From: a virus
DNA: 37,422 nucleotides
Direction: 5' to 3' (one strand)
IMG/VR virus record: IMGVR_UViG_3300046457_000003
Location: 1-37,422 of that record
Shown here: piece by piece, positions 3,156 through 37,422 of the stretch
Numbering within the stretch: position 1 is the first letter of the stretch
Layout of the letters: every line of letters begins with the position of its first letter
The notes under the pieces: generated by a model
Told to the model about the DNA's origin: nothing
Seen by the model: only the letters and a program-made list of their open reading frames with translations
Databases searched by the model: none
Position numbers and translations under genes: made by a program

Positions 3156-5237
3156 TCAGCGAACAGGGCACGCACCAGATGCGCAGTCTTCGTCGGTCGA
3201 GTCTTCGATCCGAGTCAGTTCGTACTGGTCGAACTCGGCTTCCGAGATCCGCTCGTAGGGAGCCTGCTCTCGGGTGCCGTCGACCATGATCGTGGTCCCC
3301 TTCAGGTGGGGAAGCCACGACTGGATCACAGCCATCGTCTCGTCCACGTCCAGGCCCTCGGGAACGTTGGCCGTGAAGCTCACGGCGTTGTCCGCGTAGT
3401 GGGTCTGGTACATCGCCTGGAAGGACAGCATCTGGTCGAGCGTGAGCTCGTCGGCAGACTCAACGAGATCGGCGTCGAAGCCCATCTCCTCGACCTCGGC
3501 GACCAGCTTGTCCTTCGTCGGGAAGGTGACCACCACGGTGTTGCCGGACTGGTCGTAGACGCAGGTGTCCACGGCGTAGCCCTGCATGAAGAAGCGGTCC
3601 ACACTTGCAGCCTGGTCGGCATCGGCGAGAGAGAAGCGAACCCGTCGAAGGAACGTCCGCCCGTAGATCGGGTGGATGCCCTCCGTCACGCCCGGCATCT
3701 TGGCGATCGTGCCAGTCGGCGCGACCGTCGTGACCTTGACCGGCTCGGGGATGCGCAGCTCGAAGGCGTAGTCACGGGCCTCCTCGCGGACGACCTCGTA
3801 CAGATCCTCCAGGAGCGACGGCATGAACGTGAACGGGGCGGTCGAGTACCGGACTCCGGACTTCGCGAGGAAGCCCTGGACACCGAAGTGCCCGACACCG
3901 ATGCGCCGGTTGGCTGCGAGCTTGGCAGCCTGGCCCGCGTCGTTCACGTCGCCGTAGGTGGCACGGATCAGGAACCGGGTGACGAGAGCGTGCGCCTCCT
4001 TCATGCCAGCCTCATCGAACTCCCCGCCCTTGACGGACGGAGCGAACGCATCGAGGTTGACGTGACCGAGGTTGCAGTTCTCCCAGGCTTCGAGCGCGAT
4101 CTCGCCGCAGGGGTTGGTCGCGATGACCTCGCCGACCTCACCCTCGTTGGACAGCGTGCTGTTCCAGTAGCCAGGCTCTCCGTTCCGGAGCATGCCCTCG
4201 ACCACTGCACGGTGCACGTCGACCGCACTCTCATGCCCCTTGGCCAGCGCCTCGGTGAAGGCACTGTCGATCTCGACCGAGATGTTCGTCGTCCAGTGCT
4301 TCGAGCCGTCGACCTTGCAGTCAAGGAACTCGCGGACGAACGGGTCACGCCAGTGGCAGATCGCCATGCGGGCCGAGCGACGGTTGCCGCCCGAGACCAC
4401 GCACTCAGCGATGGCATGGTCGATCTCCATCGCCTCGGTGGGGGTGATCCACCAGGTGGGGACGCTGAGGAGCGGGTCGGTCTTGTAGCGGTCGACGTCC
4501 GACGCCCGGCTCAGCACCTTGCCGATCTCCTGCATCATGCGACCGAACGGAGCCGGACCCGAGGCCGTACCACCGAAGGTCTTCAGTCGGGCACCCTTGC
4601 CTCGCACTCGGCTCACGTCGTAGACGCGGGCTCGGTGCTTGACCTCGTCGTCGGTCATGAACGTGTCGATCAGGTCGACCAGGGCGTCAGCCCAGCCCTC
4701 GCGGGAGTCCTCGACCTCGAAGGCTCCGTCCCAGTCCGAGTCGTACTCGGAGGACAGGAGGCCAGCCGACTGCATCTCGGCGTAGTCGGGGTGGGTCGGG
4801 TCGCACACGATGTGGACGTCGAGCTCACGGCGAGGCGTGCCGAACGGCATCAGGTACTTGGAGGAGTAGTTCGCTCCGACACCGCCGCCCTCCATCAGGC
4901 GGAGGAAGGTGAACTCGAAGTGCTTGGCCAGCGTCTCGCCCCAGCCAGAGACATGGCAGTTGAACAGGTACTGCCGACCCTTCACACCGGACGCCCAGAG
5001 GTGACGACCAGCCGGGAGGATGGCGAACCTCTCCATGTAGCCGGTCAGCTTCTCGGCCTCCTGCGACACTGTCACATCCCAGCCAGCTCGGGGACCGTAG
5101 ACCAGCGCGAGGTTCCCCTCGACCACGCGGGCGACCGTCTCGGGCCAGGTCTCCTTCTCGCCGTTGGCCTTGGTGCGGGAGTAGGTGCGCTCGTACACGG
5201 TCTGGCCGGTCGGACCGAAGGGGATGGTGTTGCTCAC
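3156..5237 (-). CDS. nrdJ: Class II (adenosylcobalamin-dependent) ribonucleoside-triphosphate reductase
   Basis: Reduces ribonucleotides to deoxyribonucleotides with a cobalamin-derived thiyl radical. The 693 residues match the monomeric RTPR type known from Lactobacillus leichmannii. Visible are Cys94 in LFNCHVSGW (redox partner), NPCGEI with radical Cys377 and Glu379, and Cys388 in WENCNLGHVNLD exactly 11 residues later, as C408/E410/C419 are spaced in that enzyme. A C-terminal pair (EDCASGACPVR) would be rereduced by thioredoxin. GTG 5237 has AAGGAGG nine bases upstream. It frees the phage from oxygen-sensitive or iron-dependent RNRs but needs host B12. It works with dCMP deaminase and ThyX. 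A stable hairpin lies in its leader. Confidence 0.96.
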   Translation of the reverse strand: MSNTIPFGPTGQTVYERTYSRTKANGEKETWPETVARVVEGNLALVYGPRAGWDVTVSQEAEKLTGYMERFAILPAGRHLWASGVKGRQYLFNCHVSGWGETLAKHFEFTFLRLMEGGGVGANYSSKYLMPFGTPRRELDVHIVCDPTHPDYAEMQSAGLLSSEYDSDWDGAFEVEDSREGWADALVDLIDTFMTDDEVKHRARVYDVSRVRGKGARLKTFGGTASGPAPFGRMMQEIGKVLSRASDVDRYKTDPLLSVPTWWITPTEAMEIDHAIAECVVSGGNRRSARMAICHWRDPFVREFLDCKVDGSKHWTTNISVEIDSAFTEALAKGHESAVDVHRAVVEGMLRNGEPGYWNSTLSNEGEVGEVIATNPCGEIALEAWENCNLGHVNLDAFAPSVKGGEFDEAGMKEAHALVTRFLIRATYGDVNDAGQAAKLAANRRIGVGHFGVQGFLAKSGVRYSTAPFTFMPSLLEDLYEVVREEARDYAFELRIPEPVKVTTVAPTGTIAKMPGVTEGIHPIYGRTFLRRVRFSLADADQAASVDRFFMQGYAVDTCVYDQSGNTVVVTFPTKDKLVAEVEEMGFDADLVESADELTLDQMLSFQAMYQTHYADNAVSFTANVPEGLDVDETMAVIQSWLPHLKGTTIMVDGTREQAPYERISEAEFDQYELTRIEDSTDEDCASGACPVR

Positions 5238-5325: not shown

Positions 5326-5345
5326 CGTACACAGTAACACACTCA
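5326..5345 (-). repeat. 20-bp intergenic repeat, copy 1
   Basis: CGTACACAGTAACACACTCA is identical to 9813-9832. On the minus strand each copy begins with the TGA stop of the preceding gene and continues GTGTGTTACTGTGTACG, followed by a tetraloop hairpin. TGTTACTGT resembles an extended -10 promoter, so the repeat could be a promoter or regulator site. Confidence 0.75.
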
Positions 5346-5711
5346 CACCGGTCGACCGGTCAGCTCACCCAGGACCACGATCATCCGCTTCAGGGTGCCC
5401 GCGCTGTACGCAGCCAGGTCACACAGGTTGGAGATGATCGCTGCGGTCTCCTCGGGCGACGGCGAAGTGAGCTCCATGTAGGCCAGGCACTTCACCAGCC
5501 GCTCGTCCAGGTAGGGGACAGCCTCCTTGGCCGCAGCTCCCAGCATGTCGAGCTGGCGCTGCTTGGCGTAGTTCGCCATCTCGCCCTCGTTGTAGGGCCG
5601 GGAGACGATCGTGCCGTCGACCTGCCGCTCGTAGTAGGTGAGGGTCTTGTCGTCCCAGAACTCGACCGCGTTGGGGTTCATGCCCTCGGGCTGCGCTGCC
5701 ACTTCACTCAC
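5343..5711 (-). CDS. Hypothetical protein (122 aa)
   Basis: GTG 5711 overlaps the stop of the sigma-region-4-like gene as GTGA, so translation is probably coupled. The protein begins (M)SEVAAQPEGMNPNAVEFWDD and has a helical middle (GEMANYAKQRQLDMLGAAAK) and a hydrophobic helical end (AAIISNLCDLAAYSAGTLKR, then MIVVLGELTGRPV). I do not recognise it. As the third member of a tight cluster with the two sigma-like genes it might be a regulator or anti-sigma partner. That is only inferred from position. Confidence 0.72.
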   Translation of the reverse strand: MSEVAAQPEGMNPNAVEFWDDKTLTYYERQVDGTIVSRPYNEGEMANYAKQRQLDMLGAAAKEAVPYLDERLVKCLAYMELTSPSPEETAAIISNLCDLAAYSAGTLKRMIVVLGELTGRPV

Positions 5712-6097
5712 GCTGCTTCCTCCTTGATGTCGTCGTACCCGTCGATGTAGTCCGTGCCGTTCAGGAAGGCAGCGAGCTTGCCGACCGCCTTCTCGCACCG
5801 CTTCGAGATCGCCTGCTGGCTGACGCCGAGCTGGACTCCGATCTCTCGCTCCGTCCAGTCCATCCCGTACCGCAGGACGACCGCCTGCTTCTCGCCGAGC
5901 GAGAGCGGACCCTTCTCCCAGGCCCGCCCCATGTCGGCAAGGTGGGCGAACAGGGTGTTCGCGTGCTTGGGGTTCGCCTTGACCTTCGGCATGTCCGCGT
6001 CCGGCGCGGTCTCGTTCTTCACGCCGTAGGCCGCAGCCGGATCGAAGTGAGCGGGCAGAAGCTGCTCGACCAGCGCCCGGTTGTACGCACCCGCCAC
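5708..6097 (-). CDS. Sigma-70 region 4-like protein (possible half of a split sigma factor)
   Basis: 129 residues. After a roughly 50-residue N-terminal extension, LSLGEKQAVVLRYGMDWTER, EIGVQLGVSQQAISKRCEKA and VGKLAAFL (about 65-112) match the sigma-factor region 4 helix-turn-helix pattern that reads the -35 element. There is no region 2 (-10 recognition) in this protein; the gene directly upstream looks like one. Start is GTG 6097, immediately after that gene's TGA. A simple HTH transcriptional regulator is the alternative. It probably directs RNA polymerase to phage promoters alone or with its neighbour. Confidence 0.78.
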   Translation of the reverse strand: MAGAYNRALVEQLLPAHFDPAAAYGVKNETAPDADMPKVKANPKHANTLFAHLADMGRAWEKGPLSLGEKQAVVLRYGMDWTEREIGVQLGVSQQAISKRCEKAVGKLAAFLNGTDYIDGYDDIKEEAA

Positions 6098-6454
6098 TCA
6101 GACACCCAGCCCTTCGAGCTTCGTGAGGTTGTCCTCGTAGCTGGTCACCTTGGCTCGCGTCCTCTTGGTCGCGGTCTGCTTGTTCTTGTCGGTCAGGTCC
6201 TGGACGAGGCGGGCGTACAGCAGTCCCGGCTCTCCAAGCGCAGCCCGGAGGTTGCGCCGCGTGGCCACGAAGACCAGCGCGTCCTGGTAGGCATCCTCGA
6301 ACTCCGTCGTCCGGGTGTCCTCGTACTTGTTGGCGATGTGCCGAGCGGCCCGCGTGATCGCCTTGTCGACCTCGTCGCCCGGCTTGTGCCAGGACCAGTC
6401 GGCGGTCGCTTCCTCGGCGGTCTCGTAGGCGTTGCTGATCTCGATGATGTTCAC
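6098..6454 (-). CDS. Sigma region 2-like protein (possible other half of a split sigma factor)
   Basis: 118 residues from GTG 6454, which overlaps the upstream stop (GTGA) and has AAGGAGG seven bases before it. The middle part, AITRAARHIANKYED (about 32-46), EFEDAYQDALVFVATRR (51-67) and LLYARLVQDLTDKNKQTATK (78-97), has the helix pattern and D..QD spacing of sigma region 2.1-2.4, the core-RNAP and -10 binding part of ECF sigma factors. No helix-turn-helix region 4 follows; instead the next gene supplies one. The similarity is by eye and moderate, so an unrelated helical protein is possible. Confidence 0.62.
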   Translation of the reverse strand: MNIIEISNAYETAEEATADWSWHKPGDEVDKAITRAARHIANKYEDTRTTEFEDAYQDALVFVATRRNLRAALGEPGLLYARLVQDLTDKNKQTATKRTRAKVTSYEDNLTKLEGLGV

Positions 6455-7638
6455 CGGACCACCTCCTTCAGGTTCGTGTTGCCGTCCTTGGTGACGGCGA
6501 CGATGAGGCCAGGGGCACCGGTCGTACCCTTGGCGTGCCTCCACCAGGTGCTCTCGCTCTCCATCGCCGGGGGCTGGATGAAGGTGCGGAACCCATCGGT
6601 GTCGACGTGTTCGTGGTGCAGGTGACCGGCCAGGAGGAGGTCGGCCTGATGGAAGGCGGACGCCCGGTTGAACGCCTGGCCCTTCCAGTAGTCGAAGTGC
6701 TTGCCCGGTCGGAACTGGTGACCGTGGACGTGGGCGACGACCGTGCCCGAGCACTCGACTACGACGCTCAGCTCGTCCGTGTCCGGCACGTAGAACTCGA
6801 CGTGACCGAACCGCTCGGGGCTCAGGTCGGCCGCGTCCTTGACCGCGATCAGGGACTCGGTGTCGTGGCTGTCGTCGTACCGCGTCACGCCCTTGCCGTT
6901 GATCCGGACAGCCTCACCGTGGTTGCCAGGGACGGCAGCCATCGTGAGCCGAGCGACCTTCGGCGCGAAGATGAGCAGCGCGTGGAGCATCACTCGCCGG
7001 GTCAGGCGAATCTGCTCGTTCAGCGTGAGCACCGTCCGCCAGGTGTTGGCCCCACCCTGAGAGACGAAGCCCTCGATGTGGTCACCGAGCCAGGCGATGT
7101 GCACATGCCCGATCGAGAAGCGCAGTCGGTACTGCTCCAGAAGCGCAGCCGCCTTGTTGAGGCAGTCGATCGTGCGCTCCAGGGTTCCCTCAACACCATC
7201 GCCGTCGATCTTGCCGAACTGCATGTCACCGATGGCGACGATGAAGGTGAACTCCCCGTCTGTCTGCGACACTGTCACACCCGGACCGAAGTTGTCAACG
7301 GCACGGATCAGCTCGTCCAGCGACAGAGGCTCGACGTCGAGCAGCGGGTCACGGCGCTTGAAGGTGTAGCGGTTGCTCACCCCGAGGTCGCCGTTCGCCA
7401 TGGTCCACTCGCCAGAGCGGAAGCCGGTAGCGATCCACAGCTCGGGGTCCTCGCCCTTCGAGCGGAGGTAGTCCGCAGCCGCGCTCTCGTCCACCTCGTC
7501 CGGCAGACCTCGCACCGTCACCGCAGCGACGTCGCCCTGCACCTCGATCTGACGAGTGAAGTCCTTCTCAGGGTTGGTCTTGCGGGCAGGGACGCTCGGT
7601 CCGACAGGCTTCTTCAGGAGCTCATCCTTCAGTGACAC
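6451..7638 (-). CDS. Calcineurin-like metallophosphoesterase
   Basis: 395 residues from GTG 7638 with GAAGGAG upstream. The two-metal phosphoesterase motifs appear in order: GDMQFG (Asp138), WLGDHIEG (Asp186), PGNHGE (Asn239-His240), AHVHGH (about 302-307) and GHLHHEH (His339/His341). An N-terminal 130 residues (LPDEVDESAAADYLRSKGED and following) precede the catalytic domain and are not part of it. The family includes SbcD/Mre11 nucleases and DNA phosphatases. Its place in the replication block suggests a DNA-processing role, but substrate is not shown. Its start lies inside the end of the preceding 69-aa gene by 17 bases. Confidence 0.88.
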   Translation of the reverse strand: MSLKDELLKKPVGPSVPARKTNPEKDFTRQIEVQGDVAAVTVRGLPDEVDESAAADYLRSKGEDPELWIATGFRSGEWTMANGDLGVSNRYTFKRRDPLLDVEPLSLDELIRAVDNFGPGVTVSQTDGEFTFIVAIGDMQFGKIDGDGVEGTLERTIDCLNKAAALLEQYRLRFSIGHVHIAWLGDHIEGFVSQGGANTWRTVLTLNEQIRLTRRVMLHALLIFAPKVARLTMAAVPGNHGEAVRINGKGVTRYDDSHDTESLIAVKDAADLSPERFGHVEFYVPDTDELSVVVECSGTVVAHVHGHQFRPGKHFDYWKGQAFNRASAFHQADLLLAGHLHHEHVDTDGFRTFIQPPAMESESTWWRHAKGTTGAPGLIVAVTKDGNTNLKEVVR

Positions 7639-7831
7639 GGTTCAGACTCCTTCGGTAGGTACGGATCGTGGAAGCCGAGACGTCGTGTCCGTACTTCCGC
7701 AGCGTCGTGGCCAGCCAGTCGGCTGACGTACCTCCGTAGAGGTGGTCGAAGAACAGGTCCCGCTCGCGCTCACCCAGCTTCTGCCAGATGAGCGCGATCG
7801 AGGGGAACCTGTCGGTTCCAGGGAGGGCCAC
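7622..7831 (-). CDS. Small HTH-like hypothetical protein (69 aa)
   Basis: GTG 7831 overlaps the upstream TAG by one base (TAGTG). The protein reads (M)ALPGTDRFPSIALIWQKLGE, then RERDLFFDHLYGGTSADWLA and a C-terminal HDVSASTIRTYRRSLNRV, which looks like a helix-turn-helix recognition helix. No family recognised; a small DNA-binding regulator or recruitment protein is plausible. Part of the tight early operon. Confidence 0.65.
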   Translation of the reverse strand: MALPGTDRFPSIALIWQKLGERERDLFFDHLYGGTSADWLATTLRKYGHDVSASTIRTYRRSLNRVTEG

Positions 7832-9251: not shown

Positions 9252-9400
9252 TACACCTCCACGTCGTAGAACTCCTCGACCGCGAGGATCACGTCCATGT
9301 CTGAGTCGGGGTCTTCGATGAAGGCGAAGAACGCCTCGGTCTCATCGGCGAGCTGATCGCGTTCCGCCTGGGTCATGTCCCAGCCCATGAAGCCGATCAC
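9251..9400 (-). CDS. Small acidic hypothetical protein (49 aa)
   Basis: GTG 9400 overlaps the resolvase stop (GTGA) and its TAG overlaps the primase GTG. The product is very acidic: (M)IGFMGWDMTQAERDQLADET, then EAFFAFIEDPDSDMDVILAV. High Asp/Glu content and small size recall phage DNA mimics or inhibitors of host nucleases, but that is only a composition argument. No family recognised. Confidence 0.68.
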   Translation of the reverse strand: MIGFMGWDMTQAERDQLADETEAFFAFIEDPDSDMDVILAVEEFYDVEV

Positions 9401-9759
9401 TCGGGGTCCAGACCGAAGTACCGCTCGACCGTGGTGATGATGTACGCCTTGCGCCAGGGCTTGCGGTACGCCTTCACGATCACGACGCCGTCGACCTTGT
9501 CGGGGTCCAGGCCCCGGTGCTGGGCGAAGTGACCGACCTCGGTCTCCATCTCCCGCACGAAGGTGTTGGCGTCCATCTTCGCGTTCTTCGCTTCGACTAC
9601 CAGGTAGGTGCCGTCGCCGTTCCGGATGACCAGGTCACCCTCGTCCTCGCTGCCGTTCAGGTGCAGGTGCTCGATGTCCTTGCCGACGAGGCGGAACTTG
9701 TTCTTCAACTCGTTCTCCCACTCGGCACCCTTCTTCTTGTTCCTGACGGGGTTGCTCAC
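9397..9759 (-). CDS. Holliday junction resolvase-like nuclease (PD-(D/E)XK fold)
   Basis: 120 residues. KKKGAEWENEL (Glu15), DEGDLVIRNG (Asp42) and LVVEAKNAKMD (Glu56-x-Lys58) form the Hjc-like PD-(D/E)XK active site, and the length fits archaeal-type and phage resolvases. It would trim branched DNA during replication or packaging. GTG 9759 with GGGAG about ten bases upstream; first gene after a tetraloop hairpin and the 20-bp repeat, so it may have its own promoter. A VRR-Nuc type nuclease is the closest alternative. Confidence 0.8.
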   Translation of the reverse strand: MSNPVRNKKKGAEWENELKNKFRLVGKDIEHLHLNGSEDEGDLVIRNGDGTYLVVEAKNAKMDANTFVREMETEVGHFAQHRGLDPDKVDGVVIVKAYRKPWRKAYIITTVERYFGLDPE

Positions 9760-9812: not shown

Positions 9813-9832
9813 CGTACACAGTAACACACTCA
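9813..9832 (-). repeat. 20-bp intergenic repeat, copy 2
   Basis: Identical to 5326-5345. On the minus strand it starts with the helicase stop TGA and continues GTGTGTTACTGTGTACG. A diverged third version lies at 11176-11194, again beginning at a stop codon and followed by a hairpin. Confidence 0.75.
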
Positions 9833-12174: not shown

Positions 12175-12213
12175 GCTGTTGTGCTCCTCTCGTTGTTCTC
12201 TCTGTCGTGGTAC

Positions 12214-12242
12214 AAGTTACACGATCCGGAGCTTGGTGTCAA
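12214..12242 (-). promoter_or_regulatory. Strong sigma-70/HrdB-type promoter
   Basis: On the minus strand TTGACA (12242-12237), 17 bases, TAACTT (12219-12214), about 40 bases before the 161-aa gene. A consensus -35 and good spacing make it the best promoter in the window; it would drive the replication block. The -10 lies within the repeated motif GTGTAACTTGTACCA. Confidence 0.72.
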
Positions 12243-12306
12243 CCTCGCGGTTCTTGCGACTTGCGCTTCAGCTCGTCGCTTCCGCGTCGCTCTGACTTGG
12301 TACAAG

Positions 12307-13275
12307 TTACACAGCTTCGGCGGAAGAAGCAAGCTCGTTCTCCGTGACCTGCGTCACGAACGGCTTCATCGCACCACGGGTGCTGCGCGCCTTGCGGATC
12401 TGAAGCGCGAGCTGGGCCAAGGCCCACCCGATGTTCAGGTCCACCCAGTACAGGTCACACTGTCCCGTGCCAGCAGGCAGGTGGACGATGATGCCCCAGT
12501 CCTGGTTCACCTCGGGGAGCGGGCTGTACGCCTTCTCCGCCTCGGCTGCGTCGACCGCCACCTTCTTCCATGCGGCCAGGGCCTTCTTGTCCTGGTGGTC
12601 CACAGGGAACTTCGTGTGGTCGTACTTCTCTCCTCGCGAGTAGATCGCGAGCTGGCTCGCCATCTTCAGCGCCCCGTACTCGACGGACCCTGTCTTCAGG
12701 TCGCCGATGAACAGGCCCGAGATGGGCTTGCCGTCCGGGCCAGGCCCGTCGTACTCGTAGGTGCGGTCGAAGGTGCCACCGACGTTGAGCTCGTTCACTA
12801 CCACGAACTGCTCGACGGCATGGACCTTCAGCACCGACGTGGCCAGCATGTAGCCCATCATGTCCTCGACGTCCACCTGCGGCGTACCGAAGGGGAGCGG
12901 CTTGCCCGCGTCCACGTACTCGGACAGCGTGTGAAGGTGGGTGCCCTTCTCCCGCTTGTCGTTCGCGCCGCTGATGTCGACGGCACGCTCAGCGAGACCG
13001 TCCAGCTTGCGCTTGTCGTCCTTGTCGTTGGGGTCCAGCTCGCGGATGGCGTCGAGCAGGGCCGGGTTCTTGGCCAGCCCCACTCCCACCATGCGCTTGC
13101 CCCAGTTGATCAGGTTCGACTTGTCCTCGATGCAGTCGATGAACGTCGTCGTCCTGGTGTGTCCGACCGGCTTGCCGCCAGCCTTCGGCACGATGAGCGG
13201 GCGATCCCACCCGTCACGCGGAACCGACTGGTTCGGGTGAGTCTGGTTCGGGATCTCCATGAAGTTCAGGGTCAA
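12307..13275 (-). CDS. RecB/Cas4-like PD-(D/E)XK exonuclease
   Basis: 322 residues. GTHLHTLSEY (His113/His115), VGGTFDRTYE (Asp170), FIGDLKTGS (Asp192-x-Lys194) and a downstream Gln208 in MASQLAIYS follow the RecB/Cas4/lambda-exo nuclease order. It probably processes DNA ends for phage recombination. The only start that keeps the N-terminus is TTG 13275, with GGAGG nine bases upstream; it would begin (M)TLNFMEIP. That start lies 62 bases inside the end of the preceding gene in another frame. An ATG at residue 6 is the alternative. Confidence 0.85.
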   Translation of the reverse strand: MTLNFMEIPNQTHPNQSVPRDGWDRPLIVPKAGGKPVGHTRTTTFIDCIEDKSNLINWGKRMVGVGLAKNPALLDAIRELDPNDKDDKRKLDGLAERAVDISGANDKREKGTHLHTLSEYVDAGKPLPFGTPQVDVEDMMGYMLATSVLKVHAVEQFVVVNELNVGGTFDRTYEYDGPGPDGKPISGLFIGDLKTGSVEYGALKMASQLAIYSRGEKYDHTKFPVDHQDKKALAAWKKVAVDAAEAEKAYSPLPEVNQDWGIIVHLPAGTGQCDLYWVDLNIGWALAQLALQIRKARSTRGAMKPFVTQVTENELASSAEAV

Positions 13276-14307: not shown

Positions 14308-14365
14308 GTCGTTCTCCTCTCATGTCCACCCCGGTAACTTGTAGACACACTCTTGCACACGGAGC

Positions 14366-37414: not shown

Positions 37415-37422
37415 GACGAACG

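Follow-up and report, generated by a model that had tools for sequence, protein, structure and literature searches.

A predicted two-gene sigma-like pair in the replication cassette of Streptomyces phages

Introduction

Can two small adjacent phage genes each encode one half of a single sigma factor? The question is raised by a locus of an IMG/VR virus record, which we analysed in its entirety (37,422 bases; "the window"). A sequence-only reading had described at 5708-6454 two adjoining, coupled genes, the first resembling sigma region 2 and the second carrying a region 4 helix-turn-helix (HTH). Their products are called here P1 and P2, respectively; loci from our scans are numbered with the prefix L.

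Results

The locus

The near kin of the window are the Camvirus phages of Streptomyces (Joe, Sitrop, Verabelle and Kamino), with 84-88% DNA identity across the region. The genomes of these relatives measure 48-50 kb as against 37,422 bases for the window, which is therefore probably partial. Its right end, at 37422, stops inside the genes upstream of terminase, and the region where the late operon of the relatives starts is absent from it.

P1 and P2 are encoded in a minus-strand cassette of replication genes ordered primase, two small genes, MRE11-like nuclease, P1, P2, a third gene and class II ribonucleotide reductase (RNR). The features of the locus are the following:

6451..7638, minus strand: metallophosphoesterase/MRE11-like exonuclease, upstream, in the conserved slot
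6098..6454, minus strand: P1, sigma2-like (region 2) protein of 118 aa, GTG start, PHROG 1340 (ORF and profile comparison)
6152..6373, minus strand: predicted helical core of P1, residues 28-101 (H28-43, H52-65, H67-70, H76-101), aligned to sigma region 2 (AlphaFold, most blocks pLDDT >90)
6281..6298, minus strand: P1 residues 53-58, EDAYQD, the [DE]DxxQ[DE] motif (conservation)
6095..6100, minus strand: P1/P2 junction, stop TGA abutting start GTG in the same frame, offset 0 (sequence)
5708..6097, minus strand: P2, sigma4 (region 4) protein of 129 aa, GTG start, PHROG 3512 'sigma factor' (Pfam, NCBIfam, PHROG)
5918..6085, minus strand: P2 residues 5-60, the best-conserved stretch of P2 (alignment)
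5765..5908, minus strand: P2 residues 64-111, sigma region 4 domain (Pfam; hhalign 97.4% against bacterial region 4)
5798..5857, minus strand: P2 residues 81-100, helix-turn-helix WTEREIGVQLGVSQQAISKR (sequence, Pfam)
5343..5711, minus strand: third coupled gene, 122 aa, PHROG 4123, unknown function
3156..5237, minus strand: class II ribonucleotide reductase, downstream, the other edge of the conserved slot

Both ORFs are thus as first described, with TGA and GTG abutting, and the three peptides quoted from them (EFEDAYQDALVFVATRR, LLYARLVQDLTDK and WTEREIGVQLGVSQQAISKR) are present letter for letter. The coupling extends on both sides: the stop of the nuclease gene (6451-7638) and the start of P1 share 4 nt, while the P2 stop and the start of the third gene overlap as GTGA. 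This third gene (5343-5711) had also been put forward as a possible sigma partner. No support was found for such a role, its product matching no family of known function.

In the record of phage Salutena a 53-aa protein, gp38 (L034, 2660-2821), is annotated 'RNA polymerase sigma factor'. The window counterpart (7622-7831) matches PHROG 3979 and PHROG 1923, both of unknown function, and no sigma model, so the name given to gp38 is doubtful.

P2 and sigma region 4

The assignment of P2 is direct. It matches the Pfam model Sigma70_r4 (PF04545) at 2.3e-8, above the cut-off, in agreement with NCBIfam and PHROG 3512, and hhalign aligns it to bacterial region 4 with a probability of 97.4% (P 1e-11). 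The region 4 HTH proposed for the second gene is therefore present, as WTEREIGVQLGVSQQAISKR. The sequence of this HTH varies among phages, which is the expected outcome if their promoters differ.

Upstream of this domain lies a stretch (residues 5-60, consensus YNRALVEQLLP...AYG.K....DADMPK....K.ANTL.AHLADI..AW) in which no known domain was found. It could be a linker, a part docking on P1 or a finger entering the RNA polymerase (RNAP) active-site channel; the DADMPK motif lies within it.

At 5765-5930 of the window, the HTH part of P2 is unlike that of the close Camvirus relatives and closer to that of L045 and L097. Judged by its sequence, the region 4 module of the window P2 looks like one swapped by recombination.

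P1 and sigma region 2

P1 required family-level comparison. As a single sequence it matched no sigma model of Pfam or NCBIfam, remaining below every curated sigma cut-off; a search of the window with PF04542 matched nothing, and the family of P1, PHROG 1340, carries no function label. We therefore aligned by hhalign 40 P1 sequences with 43 sigma region 2 sequences from four actinobacterial genomes. The P1 family matched bacterial region 2 with Prob 83, score 33.3 and P 9e-6, in the register to be expected, which sets EDAYQDALVF against EDLTQEVF.. and YARLVQDLTDK against WLHRITTNLFLD. Among 274 controls, the 200 column-shuffled profiles peaked at 15.9, and the 74 genuine families of phage proteins drawn from these loci at 16.2. 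The score of the P1 family is twice that of the best control, and thus the resemblance to region 2, first noticed by eye in the sequence, is beyond chance at the level of the family.

Other profiles point the same way. The PHROG 1340 profile, built by others, matches a host sigma ORF at 1.9e-4 over a stretch that PF04542 also covers (9e-12), and the P1 HMM built here matches this same ORF at 2.6e-5. PF04542 is the Pfam model most frequent among P1 proteins (4/40, best value 0.0077), and 17 of the 40 match PHROG 354 'sigma-K factor', at best with 3.4e-7.

The [DE]DxxQ[DE] motif is invariant in the 67 distinct Streptomyces-type P1 proteins (67/67). Matching by eye, we take EDAYQD (residues 53-58) to correspond to residues D403, Q406 and E407 of sigma70 region 2.2. 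In sigma70 these three residues contact the beta' clamp helices. Taken as sequence comparisons, these results support P1 as a region 2 homologue at the family level.

Structure models of P1 and of the joined chain

AlphaFold, given 40 sequences, folded the helical core of P1 at high confidence, and the layout of the helices fits sigma2. Searches with this model alone were mostly directed elsewhere. Foldseek retrieved no sigma factors from the PDB; in BFVD only the family of P1 itself was significant, and a full-length protein of a phage, under the name sigma-70 region 4, matched P1 with a probability of 0.77 but an E of 2.0. By VIA the C-terminal domains of DXR came first (Z 6.8), followed by a single sigma chain, 8gzg_F (Z 5.5, rmsd 2.7, 67 aa).

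We also modelled P1 and P2 as one chain read through the stop, purely as a modelling device. Of the 50 best PDB rows, nearly all are then sigma factors, and many of the alignments span residues ~20 to ~235, from region 2 to region 4 and in order. These matches are largely due to P2, the P2 part of the model matching sigma4 domains structurally. The pTM of the joined model is 0.45, and therefore it predicts neither an interface nor the relative placement of the two halves.

Pairing of P1 and P2

The first scans yielded 131 viral loci of the Streptomyces type, with several overlapping views of one contig among them, and in all 131 P2 directly follows P1. The offsets between the two genes are 0 (55 loci), -4 (50) or -1 (24), plus -8 and -14. 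Records of isolated phages, all of them Streptomyces phages, number 172 for P2 and 171 for P1. In a wider set both genes were found in 205 loci, and the cases with P1 only are accounted for individually: one is a host sigma factor (L182), one lies at a contig end (L254), one has a P2 ORF that falls below threshold (L258), and the remaining three are mycobacteriophage loci with a single ORF. These counts support P1 and P2 as an obligate adjacent pair.

Stop-codon read-through was considered, TGA and GTG being in frame in the window, but rejected: in other lineages P2 starts in a different frame, with an overlap of 1 or 4 nt. As the frames of the junction differ between lineages, what they share is coupling and not read-through.

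One prophage ORF of Streptomyces sp. YIM 98790 (L144, 5641-6705) contains both P1 and P2. We gave it no weight as a natural fusion. At the join the last residues of P1 give way to those of another frame, which may mean that the ORF is frameshifted, decayed or wrongly sequenced.

The same slot in other actinophages

In SWU1, an L5/D29-like phage, the slot between metallophosphoesterase and RNR is filled by one 234-aa ORF bearing the RefSeq name 'sigma-K factor'. Single ORFs of ~180-300 aa lie there in Fromanvirus and other cluster A mycobacteriophages, in Rhodococcus phage RGL3 and in Streptomyces phage Ponzi. They form the family Pfam PF25684 / PHROG 354, with 674 phage records. The N half shares homology with P1 (Prob 91, P 1.2e-6) and is similar to sigma region 2 (P 1.8e-4). 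In the C half no HTH is recognisable; it aligns weakly with P2 (score 21.6, P 0.011), with a gap at the place of the HTH. The single-ORF version of Ponzi lies at 3196-3747 of L297; the split is therefore not simply tied to the host genus.

Cutibacterium phages have a second split pair: gp25 belongs to PHROG 1340 (2.9e-38), and gp23 matches PHROG 3512 (3.8e-6) and the P2 profile (Prob 92). The two are separated by gp24, of 94 aa. Since single-ORF and split versions occupy one syntenic position, the factor exists both as one ORF and as two.

Two proteins of mycobacteriophage LHTSCC, gp46 and gp49, are reported to recover RNAP beta' in pull-downs (PMC7474061), and both were considered as the sigma gene. 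Neither is; the sigma gene of LHTSCC is gp53.

Repeats elsewhere in the window

An exact 20-nt repeat, TGAGTGTGTTACTGTGTACG, occurs on the minus strand at 5326-5345 and 9813-9832, in each case just upstream of a gene (the RNR gene and that at 9397-9759, respectively). Its 17-nt core is found twice as against 0.03 occurrences expected by chance, and near-copies are present at the first site (5326-5345) in Joe, Sitrop and phiCAM. This repeat could be a promoter or an operator.

Sites with the sequence GTAACTTGTAC lie at 12210-12220, 12300-12310 and 14334-14344, in intergenic or gene-edge positions, two of them inside a 26-nt repeat. They too are commoner than chance (0.03 expected) and are possible repressor operators or stoperator-like sites.

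Discussion

The locus carries, as far as sequence comparison tells, a real two-gene sigma-like pair, whose function is predicted. Our preferred reading, which we consider likely, is that these abutting, translationally coupled genes together encode one ECF-like phage sigma factor in two proteins, P1 being its sigma2 half and P2 its sigma4 half, and that this factor shifts host RNAP to later promoters. Homology, pairing, gene order and same-slot relatives were computed, and from them we infer a P1-P2 complex, RNAP binding, promoter choice and late timing. Since related phages carry a one-piece factor, the pair probably redirects the host polymerase to phage genes. In this scheme P1 would bind host RNAP at the beta' clamp helices and open promoters at the -10 region; P2 would sit on the beta flap and use its HTH, which varies between phages, to read the -35 element. 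The joint effect would be to turn RNAP from early promoters to later ones of the phage, with structural-gene promoters as the probable targets. A search for late promoters in the gap upstream of the late operon of five genomes, a region absent from the window, gave no convincing shared motif. In D29/L5 early transcription begins at a known promoter. Late transcription sets in afterwards, at about 230 bp from the left end, and its starting place was described as poorly understood (PMC5712189).

Three other explanations were weighed. The pair may be a real two-protein sigma factor that serves middle or replication genes, or exit from lysogeny, instead of late structural genes. The genes do lie among replication genes in phages that carry integrases, and nothing was found that links them to the late operon; yet the poorly understood late start of D29/L5 (PMC5712189) leaves room for a late factor made by the phage, and we judge this explanation unlikely.

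That only P2 acts in transcription seems to us improbable. P2 would then be a stand-alone region 4-like regulator, either a late activator of the RinA/ArpU/Q type or a beta-flap binder like T4 gp33, working with a host sigma. P1, small and helical, would be unrelated and might, for example, work with the MRE11-like nuclease, whose gene shares 4 nt with that of P1. The match of P2 to PHROG 79 'anti-termination protein Q-like' (1e-4) would suit such a regulator, as would the absence of a sigma match for P1 as a single sequence and the mostly non-sigma helical domains returned by its structure search. At the family level, however, P1 scores far above all controls against both sigma region 2 and the single-ORF 'sigma-K' family, and its putative beta'-contact motif is invariant. 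Moreover, P1 is never found without P2 among the Streptomyces-type loci, and the slot that holds two ORFs in Streptomyces-type phages holds a single one in mycobacteriophages.

Least probable is a pair that binds RNAP like a sigma factor but only appropriates or silences host transcription, as a sigma competitor or anti-host factor with no promoters of its own: the lack of a conserved motif upstream of the late genes of five genomes would fit, as would the single-ORF mycobacteriophage relatives, which without an HTH would have no usual reading of the -35 element, but the HTH of Streptomyces-phage P2 is intact and variable between phages, which suits promoter reading better than mere competition.

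Returning to a two-protein sigma factor for later promoters, we tentatively extend it, with less confidence than we place in the pair itself, to one actinophage sigma family held in one conserved slot, which would be the missing late-transcription initiator. The family would cover roughly at least 900 sequenced phage records, from isolates of Streptomyces, Mycobacterium, Rhodococcus and Cutibacterium phages. L5/D29-type and Rhodococcus phages would make it as a single protein, Streptomyces and Cutibacterium phages as two, owing to a gene fission or fusion during phage descent. With a two-gene factor on one side and a one-gene relative in the best-studied actinophages on the other, the question of the L5/D29-type late start becomes directly testable. 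P1 and P2 offer a natural pair for studying a sigma factor with its -10 and -35 halves on separate proteins, and possibly orthogonal parts for Streptomyces expression systems.

Comparison with known systems

The sequence-only reading had considered a phage split sigma factor controlling its own late promoters as new. In principle a split sigma factor of a phage is not, given that T4 gp55/gp33 and SPO1 gp34/gp33 are phage-made two-protein late sigma systems. T4 gp33 is not known to read a -35 element and acts together with the sliding clamp; P2 differs in keeping an intact HTH. T4 gp55 and SPO1 gp34 are essential late sigma factors (PMC9429907). Labels also exist in the databases: Joe P2 is a 'sigma factor' in RefSeq, the Sitrop record reads sigma70 region 4, and both halves are named sigma factor in the records of Vanseggelen and Salutena, the latter with the HHpred notes 1RP3_G and 5UXX_C. 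No paper on a split phage sigma factor in actinophages was found in the open-licence literature library. The present analysis adds statistics in favour of the region 2 half, shows that the pairing is fixed, and links the pair to the single-ORF mycobacteriophage family and to the split pair of Cutibacterium phages.

The mycobacteriophage gene 53 protein (PF25684, PHROG 354) resembles the pair by its slot and by an N half homologous to P1, and differs in being one ORF with a C half lacking a recognisable HTH. In Cutibacterium phages (Pahexavirus), gp25 belongs to the PHROG of P1, gp23 matches that of P2, and the two follow the same order; unlike in the window, gp24 lies between the halves. A literature table for these phages places the sigma label on the region 4 half only (PMC3094311).

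ECF (group 4) factors have only regions 2 and 4, to which P1 and P2 align, but they are single polypeptides, whereas P1 and P2 are two ORFs with a stop between them. The SigO-RsoA system of Bacillus is split like P1/P2, with sigma2 and sigma4 on two small proteins (PMC8103513, PMC10141391) encoded by adjacent genes. It differs as a bacterial stress system from another host phylum, and the N terminus of P2 carries a long conserved segment peculiar to it. In a two-subunit sigma factor of this type the two proteins bind each other and RNAP and are both needed for initiation, as we propose for P1 and P2. Such a factor also has sigma2 and sigma4 on separate, adjacent and co-occurring genes, which is the arrangement of P1 and P2, standing in this order in 131/131 loci.
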